DNA of 27,873 bases, from positions 1-27,873 of IMG/VR virus record IMGVR_UViG_3300031857_001075. The stretch is one strand, 5' to 3'. A program made the translations under genes and the position numbers. The notes beneath the pieces were generated by a model. The model worked only from the letters and a program-made list of their open reading frames with translations. It was not told the origin of the DNA and did not search any database. This DNA comes from a virus. This document shows, in pieces, positions 1 to 26,151 of the stretch; the first letter of the stretch is position 1; each line of letters opens with the position of its first letter.

Positions 1-2969
1 CCCTTTGTAGTTTCAACATCGGTTGGTTGAGGGCCGCCAAATTCTATTATTGATAAATTTGATGAAGGTATACCATAACACGCCATCAACGCATATATAC
101 CACGTCTGGTTCCTTTGTGTTTTAAAAGGTATGGTAAGTTATTTACTATTCTTCTCCAAACTTCATATGTTCTTTGTTTTACTGGATTAGTTTGTGTAGT
201 ATTTCCATCAGAATCCATTCCAAAAACCAATTTCCACAACTGCGCACTACTATCTAAATTTAACGCATCCCAATTAAATGATTTTAAAGTATCATATAAT
301 AGTTTATCCGATATTCCGTTTTTTGATTTATATCCTAACCCTCTACTCCTTTCTATTGCTTTTGTATAAAAGTATATATTATCAAAATGATGTCCAATCA
401 TTGATAAGAATAGCAAGTAAGTTTCATTTTCACTATAATCGGAAATATATGCAGGTACATTATTTAAAACATAGTTGTAATTTGTTGTATCATATACATC
501 CGCCAATTCCACAATGGTATTATACCAATTTTCTACAACACCATCTGTGTTTAATCGCCTATCACTACCATTATATGGCCAACTGAAAGATGATGATTCG
601 TATAAGAATGATTCGAATCCATCAAACCCCTGTATTACTTTTCTCTTTTTTGCAATATTTTTTTCTCTCTCTTGTATTGCGGATAACGTCGTTGTATGAC
701 TTCCACCACCATGATAGGATGATGATATTGCACTTTCATATGCTTCTATTAATTCTACCTTATATCTAAAATTAATAACTCTTTCTTTTGCAGAACTGAA
801 ATGTACAAAGTTATCCCATAATACGGATCCTGTGTTTATATTTGAACCACTTGTATATTGTACGTTTAAATTTGATGTATCAAATACAGAGGAACTTAAA
901 TAATTTTGAATAAGTTCAGATGAACTAGATACTGATGCGCTCAGTATTAAGTCATCAAGAGATTCAAAATTAGTTGATTTACCTTTTACATAATCAATAT
1001 CAATTCCAAAATTTGGACCTTTTAAAGGAGGACAGGATAGTACATCCTGATCATTTAAAATAACAGTCTCTATTAATGGATTTGCCATCAATTTAGTAAT
1101 CCAAAAAGTTGAATTATCTAAAACATCGGCCGGGAGTGGATTGTATAATTTTAATATTACAGATTTTACTTCATTGGTAACTGTTATATTTCCAAACTCA
1201 TCTTCTTTTTTATCCGATAGAGTCCAATTATCTTGTTCCCATGATGAAATTAATATTTGTTCATCATTTCCAAAATTTGCAAGATGTGTTAAATATTTAC
1301 TTTCTTTTTGTGGTTCCGAAAATGGAATCGTACTTACAAACGCATCATATATTGATTTTCGTATAGAATCTTCATCTAACTTTATCGTTGGTAATATTAG
1401 TTTTGTCTGTATTTCGTATATGTTACCAACCAACTCCTTTGCTCCGCCTGTGTTGATTGGTGTAAGTATCAATGTAATATTATCACTTCCATTCCAATTT
1501 GGAAACGATTTAGCCAAGTCTCTTAAATTTATTTTAAAGAAACTATTTGGTGCTAAATTTTTAAATAAAGAAATTTTTGTTTTATCTTTTTGTAATAATT
1601 CAACATTTACATGCGTAGATGCAAAAGTATTATATGTTACCTCATAATCAATATTATAATCCGAAAAGCTTGGTATATCTATTTCATTTGGAAATATTAT
1701 TTGAGTAACAGATGGAAAATCGTTTATAGAAATAAAATTAATCATTACTTCTACTTTATCCCCCGTTCCATACTTTTCACTTTCTGAAACTAAAATAACC
1801 TTTTTAAGTCCGTATACTTTTAAAAAATCTTTTACAAAAAATAACTCAACAACTCCAGATATAGCATCTACTCTAACATATGAATCGGTGGATATATATG
1901 CTCTAACGTAATCGGCGTTCTCTGTATTGAATTGTAATCTAACAACCCTTTCATCATCGGATTCTTTTACTTCAACATCGTATCTATCCTTTGATATCGT
2001 TATTTTAGGTCTTTCAGATGGAATAAGTTTTTCCAGTTCAGCGAATACAACAACGCCATTCAATAATTCTTTTGAAGATATTCTAAATGATTCCGTAACT
2101 TTATTCCACTTTGTAAAATCGTTTATATTACTTTCTGCGGTTGTTTTGTTTGCCCAATAGATTGATGAGTATAATGTATTCTTTGGTAATACCCCATCTA
2201 TTTCAAAAACAATATAACCTGTATCTAAAATTGATTTTTTTATTTGTTTACCATCTGTAGAACCTTCCGATAATAATATAATATCCTCATCAACTATATC
2301 ATTTGTATCAGTCGATAACTTATACTTCAATGATAACACATCGCCTAATTCTGAATTAAAATTACTTGAAAATACTATTTCATATCCAAGCGTAGTATCA
2401 TCCTGTGGGGTTGATATTGGAGGATCCGGCTCTGGGTTTAATGTGACAATGGGCCTAGCTTTGGATTCAAATAAAAATTGTAAATCTATTGTACCGGATG
2501 TACTATTAAATTCTCGAACATTTGTCAGTACATAATTTGCATTTGTAGAATCATATAAATATTCTTCTACAAACAATTGGTCCGAATCTAAAAATCTTCC
2601 TGTTATACTTTGTGTAGATTTTACCGATACAATAAAATAATTTAAAGTTCGTTTACCATCTATTTCGGCATTATATGTTCTCGAATTACCAAATGTAAGC
2701 GATGGAGAATAGGTTAATTTAACAGATGTACCAATTCCTACATCTACTTTATTTTCTAAAAATCTAGCAGCATCGACGGATTGTAATAATATGTTTAATG
2801 TTCCATCATTTCCAGATGTAGGAACCCAGGTGCCCCCACCTCCTCCACCTACACCTATTAGTGTATCGCTCGTGCCTGTTGTAGTTACGGTTGTACCATC
2901 GAGAAGTGATTGGTTATTTGTAGTAACGTCTCCTCCAAAAAGATTTTCAGTTGGTGATTCTAATCCCAT
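1..2969 (-). CDS. large phage tail/baseplate structural protein (3' end outside window)
   Basis: The frame starts at ATG 2969 and stays open to base 1, so at least 989 residues are present and the C-terminus lies outside the window. The first 50 residues are Thr/Ser/Gly-rich and include a six-glycine run. A long stretch of mixed beta-rich sequence without an obvious enzymatic motif follows. Near residues 950-970 is the segment HKGTRRGIYALMACYGIP, then FGGP. I associate this pattern with very large structural proteins of marine T4-like phages, from memory and without a search. It is the last visible gene of the baseplate block, so a baseplate-wedge or tail-periphery role is inferred. An ATATTTATA box lies about 9 bases upstream of the ATG, and no Shine-Dalgarno site is seen. 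I cannot equate it with a particular T4 gene product; gp7 or gp10-type wedge proteins are possible counterparts. Confidence 0.8.
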   Translation of the reverse strand, partial: MGLESPTENLFGGDVTTNNQSLLDGTTVTTTGTSDTLIGVGGGGGGTWVPTSGNDGTLNILLQSVDAARFLENKVDVGIGTSVKLTYSPSLTFGNSRTYNAEIDGKRTLNYFIVSVKSTQSITGRFLDSDQLFVEEYLYDSTNANYVLTNVREFNSTSGTIDLQFLFESKARPIVTLNPEPDPPISTPQDDTTLGYEIVFSSNFNSELGDVLSLKYKLSTDTNDIVDEDIILLSEGSTDGKQIKKSILDTGYIVFEIDGVLPKNTLYSSIYWANKTTAESNINDFTKWNKVTESFRISSKELLNGVVVFAELEKLIPSERPKITISKDRYDVEVKESDDERVVRLQFNTENADYVRAYISTDSYVRVDAISGVVELFFVKDFLKVYGLKKVILVSESEKYGTGDKVEVMINFISINDFPSVTQIIFPNEIDIPSFSDYNIDYEVTYNTFASTHVNVELLQKDKTKISLFKNLAPNSFFKINLRDLAKSFPNWNGSDNITLILTPINTGGAKELVGNIYEIQTKLILPTIKLDEDSIRKSIYDAFVSTIPFSEPQKESKYLTHLANFGNDEQILISSWEQDNWTLSDKKEDEFGNITVTNEVKSVILKLYNPLPADVLDNSTFWITKLMANPLIETVILNDQDVLSCPPLKGPNFGIDIDYVKGKSTNFESLDDLILSASVSSSSELIQNYLSSSVFDTSNLNVQYTSGSNINTGSVLWDNFVHFSSAKERVINFRYKVELIEAYESAISSSYHGGGSHTTTLSAIQEREKNIAKKRKVIQGFDGFESFLYESSSFSWPYNGSDRRLNTDGVVENWYNTIVELADVYDTTNYNYVLNNVPAYISDYSENETYLLFLSMIGHHFDNIYFYTKAIERSRGLGYKSKNGISDKLLYDTLKSFNWDALNLDSSAQLWKLVFGMDSDGNTTQTNPVKQRTYEVWRRIVNNLPYLLKHKGTRRGIYALMACYGIPSSNLSIIEFGGPQPTDVETTK

Positions 2970-2977
2970 TCTTTTTA

Positions 2978-2986
2978 TATAAATAT
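2978..2986 (-). promoter_or_regulatory. ATATTTATA box before the large structural gene
   Basis: On the minus strand an ATATTTATA box ends 9 bases before the ATG at 2969. The same box precedes the gene starting at 9519 and the plus-strand gene at 17997. On the opposite strand it reads as the T4 late-promoter consensus TATAAATA, so its orientation as a promoter is ambiguous. In sequence this AT-rich some copies are expected by chance. Confidence 0.3.
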
Positions 2987-2987
2987 T

Positions 2988-4283
2988 TTATTCTATAAAT
3001 AATCTTGGTTGGTTAATTGTAAACCAATCCCCCGTTGTTCCACCCGATTCATCTCTAACCATCCCACCACCTCCACCACCGGTGGAACCACCACTACCAA
3101 TGATTGGTGTAGGATCTTCTGCAGGTAAAGGGTCTCTAATTATTGGTTCATCTTCAGCAATTTGTGGAGGTGCAATAATATCTTCTGTTGGCGGAGTCAA
3201 AATAGGATCCGCCGGGCCCGGATCTAATATTATTAATTCTGAAGAATTTTTTGGTATGGTATCATCAAATTTAAAATTAACTTCGGATGGTTTGTATACG
3301 TTTACCTTCTCAACAACAGGAGTTGGAAACGAATCTGTTATATTTTGTATTTGCTTCTCTAATTCTATAATTTTAAATTCTTCAGGTATAGATTCTATTT
3401 TTACATTTCTTCTTTTTAAAAATGAAGAATTATATTCTATACAATTATATAAAGAATCTTCAACTCCCTTTAGTATATCCGAAAAGTTATATCTTTCACA
3501 ATCTTCAAATCTTATATCAGATGGTGTTCCAAAATTTGATTCGGTTATTTTATAATTTTTGTTCGTTAAATAATAATTAACGGATGTTTTAAAATCATCA
3601 AATATTTTTTTTCTAAAATTATCAAATCTACTTAATCCAAAATCTTTTTTTAAAATATTAAAAAAATCTTTACCATATTTTGATTCCAAATAATCATCAA
3701 CTTTATTTAAAAAATTATTTTCAAAAGAATTCAATGTATCTAAAAGTGTTTTCTTATAATAAGAAAAATCTTTATTTAAATTATTTAAATTAGAAAATTC
3801 TTTTTTATTTAATTCTGTTATTTTTGAATCTGATGTTTTTAATGGTATAATCCTAACTTCTTCTCTTGATGGGGATATTTCATGTATCCAAACCCTATTT
3901 AAAATATCATCGGAACCGACACTGTTTCTTACAAAATTTATATTAACCTTCAATATACCATTGGTGAATCCTAAATCTTCTAATAATTTTTCAATATTAA
4001 TTGCAAATTCTTTTAGGCCTGTTACATTTGTTATATTGTATAGGTAGTTTTTAATATCATTTGTTTTTATGTATGCTACATTCCTACCTGACTTATGGGG
4101 TAATAGATTGTTGTTTATATCATAAACAGCAACCTCCATAATATCATATTTACACTCACCAAATTCAGTACCCTCAATCTCATTTTTGGTAACAATAAAA
4201 ATATCTTCTTTATTCAGAAATTTTCCTTCGTTTTCTGTTTTAAGATTTATATTTTCAAAATTTGTATATTTTTTAATACTCAT
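2988..4283 (-). CDS. phage structural protein with Gly-rich C-terminus
   Basis: This is a 431-aa protein in the baseplate/tail block. Residues 20-150 form a compact N-terminal region ending in WIHEISPSREEVRIIPL (about 132-148), a motif I have seen in structural proteins of marine T4-like phages. Residues 150-310 are Lys/Asn/Asp-rich and largely helical in character. The C-terminal 110 residues are rich in Pro and acidic residues, then Gly-rich (SGGSTGGGGGGM), which looks like a flexible linker or tip. There is no signal peptide, membrane segment or enzymatic motif. It starts 5 bases after the double stop of the coiled-coil gene upstream and ends 18 bases before the next ATG. The exact role is unknown; a wedge or fibre-attachment part is an inference from position. 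Confidence 0.75.
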   Translation of the reverse strand: MSIKKYTNFENINLKTENEGKFLNKEDIFIVTKNEIEGTEFGECKYDIMEVAVYDINNNLLPHKSGRNVAYIKTNDIKNYLYNITNVTGLKEFAINIEKLLEDLGFTNGILKVNINFVRNSVGSDDILNRVWIHEISPSREEVRIIPLKTSDSKITELNKKEFSNLNNLNKDFSYYKKTLLDTLNSFENNFLNKVDDYLESKYGKDFFNILKKDFGLSRFDNFRKKIFDDFKTSVNYYLTNKNYKITESNFGTPSDIRFEDCERYNFSDILKGVEDSLYNCIEYNSSFLKRRNVKIESIPEEFKIIELEKQIQNITDSFPTPVVEKVNVYKPSEVNFKFDDTIPKNSSELIILDPGPADPILTPPTEDIIAPPQIAEDEPIIRDPLPAEDPTPIIGSGGSTGGGGGGMVRDESGGTTGDWFTINQPRLFIE

Positions 4284-21291: not shown

Positions 21292-22575
21292 TTATAATAT
21301 GTTTCTATTTTTTTTATTTTTAGTAGAATCCAATCCAGTGATTACCATATCTAATAGTGAATTTTCATTATAGATTTTTTCCATAAATTTTTCATTAACT
21401 TTATATACCCAATCTTTACATAGTTTGTAATTTGTTTCATAATTTTCCATAAATTCTTTAACAAATTCTTTAAACTTATTTTGATTTCCTTTATAAATAA
21501 CCGCTTCACTATAGAATGGATGATTTTCAATTCCGGTTATTTCTCTTAAAATATCATATGGATAGGTATGCGTTGATATGAATGGTATTTTTGCAAGAAT
21601 AAATCCATATGTTTTTTCGGACAAATAATTTGACACATAATCGTTTGATAAATAATCCCATGATTCAGATAAAATATGCATTTTTGCCATTGGTAGTATT
21701 CTCATCATATATTCTAAATAATGTTCTACATTTTGTATATATGAAATATCATCCCAATTATCGGTTCCCCATTTATTTAAATGTACATTATTTACATTGA
21801 ATAATCTGGCTTTATTTACTTTATAATCCGCATTTATACAATTATCGGTTCTACTTAAGAATATTCTTGAATCATTTAATGAATCTAATTCTTCCATCAG
21901 TATCACACGATTAAGTTTATGATTTCTCATTGAGAAACATAATTTGTATGGTGGATTGATTTTATCAAAAATATTACCAAATTCATAATACCACCGAATT
22001 GATAGTAGTTCGTTCCATTGAAATATGGTATTTGTAAAAATAAAATTATGATTTGGGTATTGGACCGATTCTACAATTTTATTAAGAAAAAAATTATCAC
22101 TAAAAATATAATGATTTTTTAATCTTCTTATTTGATACTCCATATCTTTGACAGGATCAAATCGTATAAATTCGGAATCAATGAAACTTTTTTCTGTTCT
22201 CATTAATATAACTAACCATCCACTTCTATTTTCCAAATTATCTGCAATCCATTTCATTATAGGAATATCGTTGACGCCAAACGGGCCGCCACCCCTGTGT
22301 GCAGTTTCACCATGTTGTTTATTAATACAATCTATTTTGTAGTATTCACTACATTGGAACATCTGATAGTTTATTGATAAAAAATCAATTATGTGATATC
22401 CATCGGTTGCATCATTTAATTCAGGATTAAAAACTAATTCAATATTTTTTTCGTTGTATGTACATTGAACTATTCCAATATTATTAGAAATATTTAATTT
22501 TACATTTTTTGTATTTGCAAATAATTTTAAAAATAATGACCTTGAATATAAATGGTGTATATAAAATTTTATCAT
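21292..22575 (-). CDS. probable glycosyltransferase (GT-B/GT10-like C-terminus)
   Basis: The 427-aa protein is not a standard family member by eye. Its C-terminal half shows YLSEKTYGFILAKIPFIST (residues 317-335), similar to the TEKxxxALxAGxxPVV motif of fucosyltransferase-type (GT10) and other phage-borne GT-B enzymes. Before it comes FSMRNHKLNRVILMEEL (214-230), which resembles the R-x-H-x-x-x-R nucleotide-sugar segment of those proteins. The N-terminal 200 residues hold HGETAHRGGGPFG (88-100) and no motif I can name. Placement between a sulfotransferase (one-base overlap) and a GNAT gene fits synthesis of a decorated glycan. The alternative is an uncharacterised phage fold that shares only this motif. 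Confidence 0.6.
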   Translation of the reverse strand: MIKFYIHHLYSRSLFLKLFANTKNVKLNISNNIGIVQCTYNEKNIELVFNPELNDATDGYHIIDFLSINYQMFQCSEYYKIDCINKQHGETAHRGGGPFGVNDIPIMKWIADNLENRSGWLVILMRTEKSFIDSEFIRFDPVKDMEYQIRRLKNHYIFSDNFFLNKIVESVQYPNHNFIFTNTIFQWNELLSIRWYYEFGNIFDKINPPYKLCFSMRNHKLNRVILMEELDSLNDSRIFLSRTDNCINADYKVNKARLFNVNNVHLNKWGTDNWDDISYIQNVEHYLEYMMRILPMAKMHILSESWDYLSNDYVSNYLSEKTYGFILAKIPFISTHTYPYDILREITGIENHPFYSEAVIYKGNQNKFKEFVKEFMENYETNYKLCKDWVYKVNEKFMEKIYNENSLLDMVITGLDSTKNKKNRNIL

Positions 22576-23384: not shown

Positions 23385-23415
23385 TAAATGTACAAAAAAT
23401 AAATGATTTTACAAA
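23385..23415 (-). promoter_or_regulatory. Bacteroidota-type promoter of the sulfotransferase/GT operon
   Basis: The minus strand shows TTTG (23412-23415), a 19-base spacer and TACATTTA (23385-23392, one base from TAnnTTTG). Only 3 bases separate the box from the ATG at 23381, so transcription would start at or next to the start codon, giving a leaderless mRNA. Confidence 0.5.
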
Positions 23416-23735
23416 AAAGTTTTTTTGCTTTTGAGTGTTGCATTAAATAATGCATCATCAACTTCTTTCCATTTTTTTAAAGGACATTCATTATGCTCTC
23501 TTGTGAATATTTTCTTTTTTAAAGGACAACCGCATGCATTACAAAATGGTTCACCTGTTATATCTCGCTTTTCTCTAAACTCCGGACATTGTATGCATAC
23601 GTTCCACCGAGCTTCGGCCAAATCTTTTTGCTCACTGGTCGGACTTGCTGCAGTAATCCACGCATCAGTTATTGTAATTATTTTTGCTGGATCTTTGACT
23701 ATCGAGCTGATAATTTTTTTTATACCCAAATTCAT
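23409..23735 (-). CDS. zinc-ribbon phage protein
   Basis: The 108-aa protein has six cysteines in its second half: CIQC (47-50), CNACGC (65-70) and CPLKKW (84-89), separated by charged loops (PEFREKRDITGEPF). This four-to-six-Cys arrangement, ending in CP-basic-W, matches a small zinc-ribbon family common in myoviruses that has no established role. The first 40 residues form a helix with a hydrophobic stretch (IISSIVKDPAKIITITDAWI). It is the last gene of the fibre operon, 21 bases after the 49-aa gene. Confidence 0.75.
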   Translation of the reverse strand: MNLGIKKIISSIVKDPAKIITITDAWITAASPTSEQKDLAEARWNVCIQCPEFREKRDITGEPFCNACGCPLKKKIFTREHNECPLKKWKEVDDALFNATLKSKKTFL

Positions 23736-23756: not shown

Positions 23757-23906
23757 TTACATATGTTTAGTTTTCAATGCTACTATAAATTGATTAACTA
23801 TAGTATTCATTGCACTTTTTTTTATTGGTTCTTCTACTTTTTTTCTTCTTCTTTTGGTTTGATCAGAAGATGTCCAAATTTTGTTTTTATTTATTTCAGT
23901 TCCCAT
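23757..23906 (-). CDS. basic 49-aa protein
   Basis: A short reading frame from ATG 23906 to TAA 23757 encodes 49 residues, beginning MGTEINKNKIWTSSDQTKRR. It contains a tract of arginines and lysines (TKRRRKKVEEPIKK, about residues 17-30) and a C-terminal amphipathic helix (NTIVNQFIVALKT). It starts 4 bases after the fibre stop and ends 21 bases before the zinc-ribbon ATG, filling a gap that would otherwise be the longest in this operon. The basic tract could bind nucleic acid or serve as a fibre-associated peptide. Unrecognised. Confidence 0.55.
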   Translation of the reverse strand: MGTEINKNKIWTSSDQTKRRRKKVEEPIKKSAMNTIVNQFIVALKTKHM

Positions 23907-23910
23907 ATGA

Positions 23911-25851
23911 TTAATTTATTTTTTTAAATTCTACATCTATTTTGTAATAATCAACAACTAACAATCCATTATCATCATGGGATAGTGCGTTTTCAAATTT
24001 AGTCCCAATTAGTTCATTACCAATTACACCTTCATATACCCCATCTTCATCTTTATAATTGAATTGATATATGTTGATTCCCATATTAGATACCCCAACT
24101 AATTTTATATTTTCTTTATAAGCTATATCGGATTTGTTGACGTTACAAAACCCCCCAGTTAAGCACGTAGCGACTCCGGAAAGAGGTCCCTGCGTTGGTG
24201 GTCCTGGACTACAACTTCCGAACCCAGAGGAACACGCGTTGACGAAATTGAATGCTGCGGCTGAACAAGATGGATATACACCACCACATCTACAACATCG
24301 AAGATTTGTATCATAGAAATAGGCCCCTCCACCACACTCACTACAATATATGCATGGTGCGGTAACTTCTTTACAATTGAAAGTATAATTGTGCGTAAGT
24401 AATCCATATCGATTACCCACTTCTTCTGCAGTTAGAAATAAATCCAATTGTTCAAAATTTACAGTATATACTTCAACTTTATCGTATGTGTATGTTATAT
24501 TTTCTATCTGCCTTTCTATTAGTGAATTTGTTTCAGAATCAAATAATATTAATGTATCATTTGGTTGCAATGAATCGTATTGTGCAAATTTAACAACATA
24601 GTTAATTTGATTTGCATCTTCTAATTCTTTTTTTAGAATTACGGCATGCGATACATCACTAAACTTTATTCCACCAGAACATTCTATATTAATTAAAAAT
24701 CCGGTCCAATCCGTAGTAGTAACCATATCGGTTAATGCGGAGGAACTTACCTCAAAATTGGCCATTAAATTCGTATATGAGCCCGACCATTCAATTACAC
24801 TATAAGTTTGTTCATCCATTGGCAAATCCGGTATCGTAATTGATTTTACTCTATCGTTTAATGTTAAAGATGATAATAAGGTCAATCCAGTATCAGGTAA
24901 AAATACTTTTGTTGTTGAATCGGCCGATAATTTTGGTTCTTTTTCATTATTATTGTATTTGTAAATATATTTAGGTCTTTCCCAAAATGGAAGTTGATTT
25001 GTATCATCGTAATCACATACCATATCCAATTCGAATGCATTTGAAAATTGAACATTCCAAAGGTTTAATGTATCCAACTCTGAACCATAGATTAAATCGA
25101 CACTTCTATAATGTGTCAATCTACCATCCAATAAATCCGAATCGTTTAAAACATATTCTTGTATATATTCATCGTATGATATATCAGTTTTTAATTGATT
25201 TAATTCTTGTATAGAATTTATTTTATATAATTTTGGGTAAATGTGATTATCCGTTGGTGTTATTCTTTTTTTAACTACATAATTTGGATGATTACCATTA
25301 TCTCTAACAGTATCTCCCAATGAATCAAACCCCAATTCTGCATCATTTATATATGTTTTAGGTATGGATGTTGGATTTGAATCGTACATTAATTTAAGAA
25401 ATTCCCAATTATCCCTTGCATATGTATCATCTATTAATGCAGTTACATCGTATGATATCCTAATAATTAGTTTATTTGGTGTATCTTCTATATATGGAAC
25501 TGTAACCGAATTATTATCCAATACAATGTTATTAAAAGTAATTCCACGATTTTGGCAGTAATGTTCTAATAATTGTCTTAAATTAGGATTTGGTAAGCCG
25601 GCCGAATTTGCAATAGATTCTGCGGAATCAGGAGTTAAATCTATTTCCGGTTGATAACCAGCTGCTAAAACTTTTTTATTAATGAAATGTATTTCATTAA
25701 TTGTACTTCCTGATACTATTTGATCCAATATATTTACATCAAAATAATACTTTAAACTAACACCCGGATGTATATTTGTGTTGGTTTCTATTGCTTTAAA
25801 GGAACCATCGGTATCTCTTACAAAATCTGTTCCGATTATTACTGCTCTCAT
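23911..25851 (-). CDS. composite tail fibre: ATP-grasp-like, Hint-like, Cys-rich and S74 chaperone regions
   Basis: The 646-aa protein has four parts. Residues 1-300 contain FVRDTDGSFKAIETNTN (10-26), reminiscent of the ATP-grasp metal loop, then NYVVKKR (190-196) and YDEYIQEYVL (226-235), reminiscent of its ATP-binding Lys and hinge. This order would be permuted. Residues 309-488 look like a Hint domain: STTKVFLPDTG and LTLNDRVKSI at the start, a block-B-like FSDVSHAVIL with His402, and VYTVNFEQLDLFL then GLLTHN ending at Asn488. Residues 493-569 hold 12 cysteines. Residues 574-646 are a classic S74 chaperone (KSDIAYKENIKLVG, then NIYQFNYK and VVDYYKI), which trimerises and may self-cleave from fibres. 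The S74 call is firm, Hint fairly so, ATP-grasp tentative. It follows the 99-aa gene with no gap. Confidence 0.85.
   Translation of the reverse strand: MRAVIIGTDFVRDTDGSFKAIETNTNIHPGVSLKYYFDVNILDQIVSGSTINEIHFINKKVLAAGYQPEIDLTPDSAESIANSAGLPNPNLRQLLEHYCQNRGITFNNIVLDNNSVTVPYIEDTPNKLIIRISYDVTALIDDTYARDNWEFLKLMYDSNPTSIPKTYINDAELGFDSLGDTVRDNGNHPNYVVKKRITPTDNHIYPKLYKINSIQELNQLKTDISYDEYIQEYVLNDSDLLDGRLTHYRSVDLIYGSELDTLNLWNVQFSNAFELDMVCDYDDTNQLPFWERPKYIYKYNNNEKEPKLSADSTTKVFLPDTGLTLLSSLTLNDRVKSITIPDLPMDEQTYSVIEWSGSYTNLMANFEVSSSALTDMVTTTDWTGFLINIECSGGIKFSDVSHAVILKKELEDANQINYVVKFAQYDSLQPNDTLILFDSETNSLIERQIENITYTYDKVEVYTVNFEQLDLFLTAEEVGNRYGLLTHNYTFNCKEVTAPCIYCSECGGGAYFYDTNLRCCRCGGVYPSCSAAAFNFVNACSSGFGSCSPGPPTQGPLSGVATCLTGGFCNVNKSDIAYKENIKLVGVSNMGINIYQFNYKDEDGVYEGVIGNELIGTKFENALSHDDNGLLVVDYYKIDVEFKKIN
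24141..24300 (-). other. GC-rich patch encoding the Cys-rich linker
   Basis: By hand count about 83 of 160 bases are G or C (52%), against roughly 30% for the window. The patch encodes most of the 12-cysteine segment of the fibre (residues about 518-570) and ends where the S74 domain begins. It suggests recent exchange of this segment or strong selection on Cys/Gly/Pro/Ala codons. Confidence 0.7.
24388..24927 (-). other. Hint (intein/hedgehog-like) domain within the fibre gene
   Basis: This covers residues 309-488 (180 aa). Ser309 stands five residues before the TKV of the N1 block, where inteins carry Cys or Ser. GxxxxSDVSH (block B) has His402. The C-terminal blocks are VYTVNFEQLDLFL and GLLTHN. 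The residue after the terminal Asn488 is Tyr489, not Cys, Ser or Thr, so canonical protein splicing is not expected and cleavage is more likely. No homing endonuclease motif is present. Confidence 0.6.
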
Positions 25852-26151
25852 TTATTTTAATTTGTTTATTATAAGTAGTGTTTTTTTACAATTTTCATAC
25901 ATCTCCAATTGGATAAACTTACTATAAATATAATCCATTAGAGGTTTATATTCATCTCTTTTTATAGTAACGTATGCTTTGATTTTTTTGAATTTAAATA
26001 GGATTATTTCCTTTGTAGATTTGTTTCCTTTAAAATTATCTATTATATCTACTATCTTTTCTAAATCCCGAACAGGGACTTTGTGTATATGTTCTTTCCA
26101 ATCCAATTTAACATAACCACTCTCTATCTTATCAAGTACTTTGATATTCAT
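25852..26151 (-). CDS. hypothetical basic protein preceding the fibre gene
   Basis: The 99-aa protein is Lys-rich with alternating strands and helices: GYVKLDWKEHIHKVPVRDLE (residues 12-31), then IILFKFKKIKAYVTIKRDEY (49-68), and a C-terminal helix (YSKFIQLEMYENCKKTLLII). There is no membrane segment and a single Cys. It abuts the fibre gene (TAA immediately followed by ATG) and has the best promoter in the window directly upstream, so it heads the fibre operon. A fibre-assembly chaperone is possible from position, but no family is recognised. Confidence 0.72.
   Translation of the reverse strand: MNIKVLDKIESGYVKLDWKEHIHKVPVRDLEKIVDIIDNFKGNKSTKEIILFKFKKIKAYVTIKRDEYKPLMDYIYSKFIQLEMYENCKKTLLIINKLK

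Follow-up and report, generated by a model that had tools for sequence, protein, structure and literature searches.

We describe a phage protein of 646 amino acids in which two predicted self-cutting domains, a Hint-fold domain and a C-terminal S74 domain, lie exactly at the two ends of a hypervariable, cysteine-rich segment (hereafter the cassette), behind an N-terminal domain that resembles the circularly permuted ATP-grasp ligases. The reading that we favour, at a probability of about 0.5, is that this protein is a self-processing precursor that frees or mounts the cassette, the cysteines of which would be paired in disulfides. The gene lies on a 27.9-kb virus fragment from IMG/VR with a G + C content of 30% (this whole stretch is called the window below), which also carries contractile-tail genes encoding baseplate wedge subunits. 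It starts at position 25851 and ends at 23911 on the minus strand, and the features referred to in the text are as follows.

23911..25851, minus strand: main ORF, 646 aa, with a permuted ATP-grasp-like domain, a Hint domain, a Cys-rich cassette and an S74 domain
24952..25851, minus strand: residues 1-300, predicted circularly permuted ATP-grasp-like ligase domain (Foldseek and a weak CP_ATPgrasp_1 match)
25780..25788, minus strand: residues E22-T-N24, predicted Mg-binding E-x-N motif (conservation; GSP_synth and CP_ATPgrasp_1 alignments)
24388..24927, minus strand: residues 309-488, predicted Hint-fold domain (AlphaFold2 model and Foldseek)
24388..24396, minus strand: T486-H487-N488, block G, with the predicted C-terminal cut after N488 (conservation)
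24133..24387, minus strand: residues 489-573, hypervariable Cys-rich cassette with 12 Cys and a CNxxK end (Cys parity and identity comparison)
23914..24132, minus strand: residues 574-646, S74 intramolecular chaperone/autoprotease with an S574/K579 dyad and a predicted cut at K573|S574 (profiles and conservation)
23757..23906, minus strand: 49-aa basic conserved protein (MGTEINKN...KTKHM), a previously unlisted gene directly downstream
23409..23735, minus strand: 108-aa Cys4 (zinc-ribbon-like) protein, PHROG 13558, the next gene
25922..25932, minus strand: TATATTTATAG element, upstream, about 72 bases from the gene start in the window

The protein family and its genomic neighbourhood

A first search of IMG/VR returned relatives at 18 loci (E 1e-132 to 0); in the same search, two other contigs carried an identical copy of the 646-aa protein and 15 more distinct relatives showed roughly 40-70% identity. 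Later scans added L020-L022, L023, L105-L107 and L112, and the family comprises 24 members in related phages, identical copies of the window protein being left out of the count. The cassettes of L021 and L022 are identical, and L112 is a distant member, with 24% identity across the first 480 residues. One member, L023, was found in a 3.7-kb contig of a Pelagibacterales MAG, which is most likely a phage contig binned into that MAG. Among the annotated phages of INPHARED, no relative of the full 646-aa protein was found at E values up to 0.01 and none of the N-terminal or Hint parts at E values up to 10; the S74 part alone gave matches there, weakly. Mean pairwise identity among the aligned members is 56% for the ATP-grasp-like part, 42% for the Hint domain and 49% for S74; the cassette, at 26%, varies more than any other part.

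Two genes follow the main gene as operon partners. In each of the 22 loci tested that have a cassette, the gene for the 49-aa protein begins 2-48 bases after the main gene, and it was not found behind L112, the member without a cassette; its product could be a cassette chaperone or a ligase substrate. The Cys4 protein is encoded in nearly all loci with downstream sequence. Further downstream the gene sets vary and include 2OG-Fe oxygenases, GNAT, sulfotransferase-like (by motif only), SGNH-like (by eye) and methyltransferase-like proteins, and a carbamoyltransferase is also present in the neighbourhood. A tryptophan halogenase (L017:8750-9988; Pfam E 2e-91) is encoded downstream of one family member, beside sulfotransferase-like genes, and a second copy of the same family lies in L016. 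Upstream of the family member in L011 (3028-3933), and also in L001, L002, L013 and L014, there is a lipoprotein-like protein with thrombospondin type 3 repeats and a reprolysin-type metallopeptidase domain. A 427-aa neighbour (window positions 21292-22575, minus strand) is conserved in most loci, and its copy in L005 matched the PhiKZ gp91 vertex-binding protein, though only weakly (E 0.0016, below the cut-off). No adjacent tail-fibre gene was found in the window, the nearest identified tail genes (baseplate wedge) being about 15 kb away.

An identical or similar TATATTTATAG element is located upstream of the gene in most loci, despite differing upstream genes, and its pattern TATA[TC]TTATA has a single match in the whole window. 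This element is possibly a promoter type of this phage group. The T4 late promoter TATAAATA was looked for directly upstream and was not found, TATATTTATAG being present there instead.

The predicted Hint and ATP-grasp-like domains

The first-pass annotation had placed a Hint domain at residues 309-488. Neither Pfam nor NCBIfam gave a Hint profile match for these residues or for the relatives, searches of the PDB sequences with either the full or the Hint profile returned no match, and hhalign to Hint_2 covered block A only (P 0.0024, probability 12%). The assignment stands instead on the predicted fold. In an AlphaFold2 model built from 19 relatives (pLDDT 53-91 over most of the Hint region), a Foldseek search against the PDB gave 45 matches at E < 0.001, every one a Hint or intein structure. 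The best was the BIL2 domain 6y75 (E 2.6e-7); the hedgehog Hint domain 1at0 and the BIL 2lwy were matched at target TM values of 0.81 and 0.79, and the ten best matches lay between 0.68 and 0.81, as values for a predicted rather than a solved structure. In addition, Hint-containing phage proteins were among the top matches in a viral library.

The conservation of the candidate catalytic residues is uneven along the domain. Alignment to Hint_2 makes Ser309 the first Hint residue; Lys/His307 had been considered for this position and was dropped, since the alignment of T314 to the conserved Thr of Hint_2 gives Ser309. This residue is Ser in 13 of the 19 aligned members, Asp in the remaining six and absent in L112, and His402 of block B is replaced by Gln in two members. 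L112, which has lost residue 1 and block B, keeps H487, N488, D470 and F472, so that selection throughout the family seems to bear on the C-terminal Hint residues alone. None of the 24 members lacks H487 or N488, and T486 is kept in 23, with Ile in its place in L112. The residue after N488 (+1) is Tyr or Phe in 19/19, Ile in L023 and Lys in L112, and never Cys, Ser or Thr.

Judged by the rules set out in PMC4031507, this pattern at residue 1 and +1 leaves asparagine cyclisation, with cleavage after N488, as the sole reaction that the domain seems to retain; in inteins, however, cyclisation of the asparagine is off-pathway when the upstream steps have not taken place (PMC4031507). We infer that the Hint domain would cleave after N488, and both splicing and N-terminal cleavage look lost. 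The proposal that it cuts and then rejoins peptide bonds is thus unlikely, and a full splicing intein is ruled out by residue 1 and the +1 residue. A class 3 intein, which would use the Cys of the Trp-Cys-Thr motif in block F, was also considered and set aside, as no block F Cys occurs in the aligned members. The domain resembles the BIL and hedgehog Hint domains in its predicted fold and its terminal His-Asn, and the BILs that lack a C-flanking nucleophile in having a +1 residue other than Cys, Ser or Thr. It differs from the BIL and hedgehog domains at residue 1, where no nucleophile is conserved (Ser, Asp or absent), and in block B, where Thr-x-x-His is degraded.

The first-pass annotation had overlooked the ATP-grasp-like character of the N-terminal part. 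Residues 1-311 were modelled separately (mean pLDDT 69, pTM 0.67). The nearest fold in Foldseek was E. coli YjfC, 7uk6 (E 1.3e-5, probability 1.00, but TM 0.39/0.32), followed by the glutathione synthetase-like effector 5oev (E 6e-3), and the full-length model matched yeast glutathione synthase 1m0t (E 2e-3); the N-terminal model is of low confidence in places, with TM below 0.5. No ATP-grasp family gave a sequence-profile match above its cut-off. The sole Pfam family listed for the N-terminal domain of the window protein was CP_ATPgrasp_1, described as 'a circularly permuted ATPgrasp', over residues 2-33 (E 0.16; 11.4 bits, well under the cut-off of 23.1). When the domain was aligned with bacterial GSP_synth sequences by hhalign, DFVRDTDGSFKAIETNTN was placed on DFAFDGNGPPKLLEYNAD, at an E value of 0.55 that carries no significance; this alignment and the CP_ATPgrasp_1 match cover the same stretch, on the E-x-N motif.

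E22 and N24 are invariant, the distant L112 included. The 19 aligned members agree fully at 28 of the 29 candidate ATP-grasp residues and have K/R at the remaining one; L112 keeps nine of these residues (D9, K19, E22, N24, R131, K194, Q231, E232 and R249). The order of the conserved motifs, with E-x-N coming first, at the N-terminus, and the Lys, Gln-Glu and Arg motifs after it, is as expected of a permuted ATP-grasp, their catalytic roles being predicted by analogy of motif and fold. The domain resembles the circularly permuted ATP-grasps (YjfC/GSP_synth, eukaryotic-type glutathione synthase and CP_ATPgrasp_1) in this order and is nearest to them by Foldseek, and it differs from them in having no significant sequence match and in being fused to Hint and S74. 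We consider it very probable that the N-terminal domain has an ATP-grasp-like fold and rather likely that it is active as a ligase. The term four-part fibre, which had been applied to the whole protein, is therefore wrong for the N-terminus, where the prediction is a permuted ATP-grasp ligase whose active-site set is invariant; neither a fibre shaft nor collagen-like repeats were seen in this part, which shows 56% pairwise identity and enzyme-like motifs. R2K/CDC123 proteins are ATP-grasp peptide ligases encoded by phages and predicted to modify proteins (PMC4431377). They share with the present domain its occurrence in phages, and they were rejected as its family because the fold search favoured YjfC and glutathione synthase; by both fold and profile they belong to another family, and fusion to Hint or S74 is not mentioned in PMC4431377.

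The S74 domain and the variable cassette

An S74 domain had also been read at residues 574-646, and this reading holds. The window protein itself scored a weak 12.5 bits against Pfam Peptidase_S74, which matched 10 of 16 relatives (best E 3e-5); in a direct search two homologues, at 26.9 and 22.5 bits, exceeded the curated cut-off of 22. PHROG 6121, 'virion structural protein', matched the C-terminal end (E 5e-8), and the PHROG virion and fibre labels are confined to this end of the protein. The motif SDxxxK, with Ser and Lys five residues apart, was found in 17/17 S74-bearing aligned sequences and in L112, L023 and L105-L107, so that the Ser/Lys dyad is present in every member having S74. In MYRF the dyad is S578/K583, with the same spacing as S574/K579, and the C-terminal product starts at S578 (PMC3742443). 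A weak alignment of our C-terminal profile with 3gud, 'Neck appendage protein' (E 0.083), places residue 1 of that chain on Ser574. The cut is therefore predicted at K573|S574.

S74 domains are typical of trimeric virion parts and occur in non-virion proteins too. The present domain is C-terminal and carries its Ser and Lys five apart, as in the S74 auto-cleavage systems of endosialidase tailspikes, 3gud and MYRF, which are cut just before the Ser and in which the domain usually follows a trimeric module. Unlike in these systems, the part in front of it is no beta-helix shaft but a short Cys-rich cassette of hypervariable sequence, itself preceded by a Hint domain. The S74 domain is also missing from two members, L007 and L018, which lie on different branches of the tree and have lost it independently. 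Another Cys-rich/S74 layout is found in other phages, where short proteins (L128:5479-6234 and L132:5404-6234) carry CTCNCNY repeats right before S74.

In 23 of the 24 members the Hint domain is followed by a hypervariable cassette with sharp borders, from THN488 to K573, that ends in a conserved CNxxK. The earlier count of 12 cysteines between Hint and S74 is exact for the window protein (Asn488 to Ser574). Across the family the number is 6, 8, 10 or 12, even in each of the 23 cassettes, and it has changed at least five times on the tree, each time by an even number; we used this tree count in place of parity by sequence clusters, which is weak with five clusters. The simplest explanation for an always even number is disulfides, which suggests that the cassette cysteines are paired.

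The cassette also looks exchanged between relatives. The close pair L003/L005 is 95% identical in Hint and 89% in S74, against 49% in the cassette, and identity also falls in the cassette in six other pairs. In these seven pairs dN, and mostly dS, is raised in the cassette; the raised dS in most pairs suggests exchange by recombination besides fast change.

Natural variants mark the same borders. L112 runs from Hint straight into S74 (...ILIHN-KW-SDIRLK...), without a cassette and with the nine ATP-grasp residues and the Hint residues named above and the S74 dyad kept. In L007 the last residue is K573 exactly, and downstream of the stop an out-of-frame remnant of the S74 tail, DYNGFGIKFLKLK, is left; in L018 a short proline-rich tail replaces S74 and the protein still reaches the CNxxK end; both fit a mature cassette that ends at K573. 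The L007 locus (2880-3130), where S74 is deleted, the ORF ends after YCNxxK and the last 13 S74 residues lie out of frame, could also be an assembly error.

Proposed self-processing and its alternatives

In the precursor reading, the C-terminal S74 domain would trimerise, help the cassette to fold and then cut itself off at K573|S574, as judged from the S74 family. A one-sided Hint domain, having lost its N-terminal acyl-shift chemistry and kept His-Asn, would cut after N488 by asparagine cyclisation. The product, freed or mounted, would be a disulfide-rich cassette, hypervariable and about 70-110 residues long, that most likely works extracellularly, binding a receptor or serving as a surface piece, and the permuted ATP-grasp ligase may activate a carboxylate and join it to an amine. 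The idea of two-step self-processing in the first-pass annotation survives as the most natural reading of Hint and S74 at the two cassette ends, with the restriction that only C-terminal Hint cleavage keeps its residues. Against it stand the lack of a Hint or ATP-grasp profile match above cut-off, the weak N-terminal model, the +1 residue of the Hint domain and the off-pathway character of such a cyclisation in inteins, as well as the absence of a fibre shaft and of an adjacent tail-fibre gene, the distance to the nearest identified tail genes and the occurrence of S74 in non-virion proteins. A cut after N488 would also detach the cassette, whose attachment to the virion is left unexplained; the S74 domain, by analogy, is the one feature that points to the virion. 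A further version, which we regard as decidedly unlikely, would have the S74 cut expose a carboxylate at CNxxK573 and the ATP-grasp domain ligate the cassette to an amine of a tail protein, the 49-aa partner or a surface polymer, with Hint freeing the other end; the variable binding head would then be mounted by ATP-driven amide ligation, not translated as a fusion.

A tentative alternative, which we think doubtful, is that S74 alone is active, the Hint and ATP-grasp-like parts being structural relics that form the base of a virion appendage; the mature protein would be residues 1-573, with a variable Cys-rich tip at its end. Such a C-terminal tip agrees with S74 biology, and the loss or change of Hint residue 1 and block B in several members, the dyad kept in every S74-bearing member and the nearly common end point of both S74-less members all fit this alternative. 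However, a relic is not expected to retain catalytic residues specifically, and 28 ATP-grasp-type residues are invariant in 19 members; nine of these residues, plus HN, also persist in L112 at 24% identity. That these domains are artefacts of modelling in an ordinary tail or baseplate fibre is highly improbable: the lack of a Hint or ATP-grasp profile match above cut-off and the low TM of the N-terminal model would favour it, but the exclusively Hint or intein PDB matches, the independent Hint matches in the viral library and the motif-level agreement at E-x-N and HN speak against it, and no fibre shaft is present in sequence or model.

The cassette might instead be a released disulfide-rich peptide, secreted or injected against the host or rivals in the style of polymorphic toxins and possibly modified by neighbouring enzymes, which we consider unlikely. 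A Hint domain directly before a variable C-terminal module, which it is predicted to release, is the layout of polymorphic toxins with HINT autopeptidases (PMC3482391), and candidate modifying enzymes are encoded nearby (2OG-Fe oxygenases, tryptophan halogenase, GNAT, carbamoyltransferase, and sulfotransferase-like and, by eye, SGNH-like proteins). Unlike those toxins, the phage protein has an N-terminal ATP-grasp-like domain, not a filament stalk, and its Cys-rich module is followed by S74, which belongs typically to trimeric virion parts; neither an immunity-like gene nor a secretion signal was identified, and the tailoring genes could instead decorate the virion or the host surface.

In the literature within our reach, which excludes most subscription papers, no paper joined a Hint domain, bacteriophage and S74, in line with the earlier impression that this combination is undescribed in phages, and none joined ATP-grasp, phage and a Hint domain. 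Each part is of a known kind; what is undescribed, as far as the searches reach, is that they are combined and that a variable cassette is so cleanly bracketed. If both cuts occur, the precursor would be a phage protein whose Hint and S74 domains flank a disulfide-rich module of hypervariable sequence, and whose ligase domain shares a chain with what may be its substrate. If true, the scheme would link asparagine cyclisation, Ser/Lys autoproteolysis and ATP-grasp ligation, would provide a naturally one-sided Hint cutter and would explain how the variable piece is swapped between phages with clean borders; the cassette borders, the cassette-less L112 and the two S74-less variants make it directly testable. 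That two predicted self-cutting domains sit exactly at the ends of the variable segment suggests a newly seen means by which phages could release a variable surface piece or mount it.
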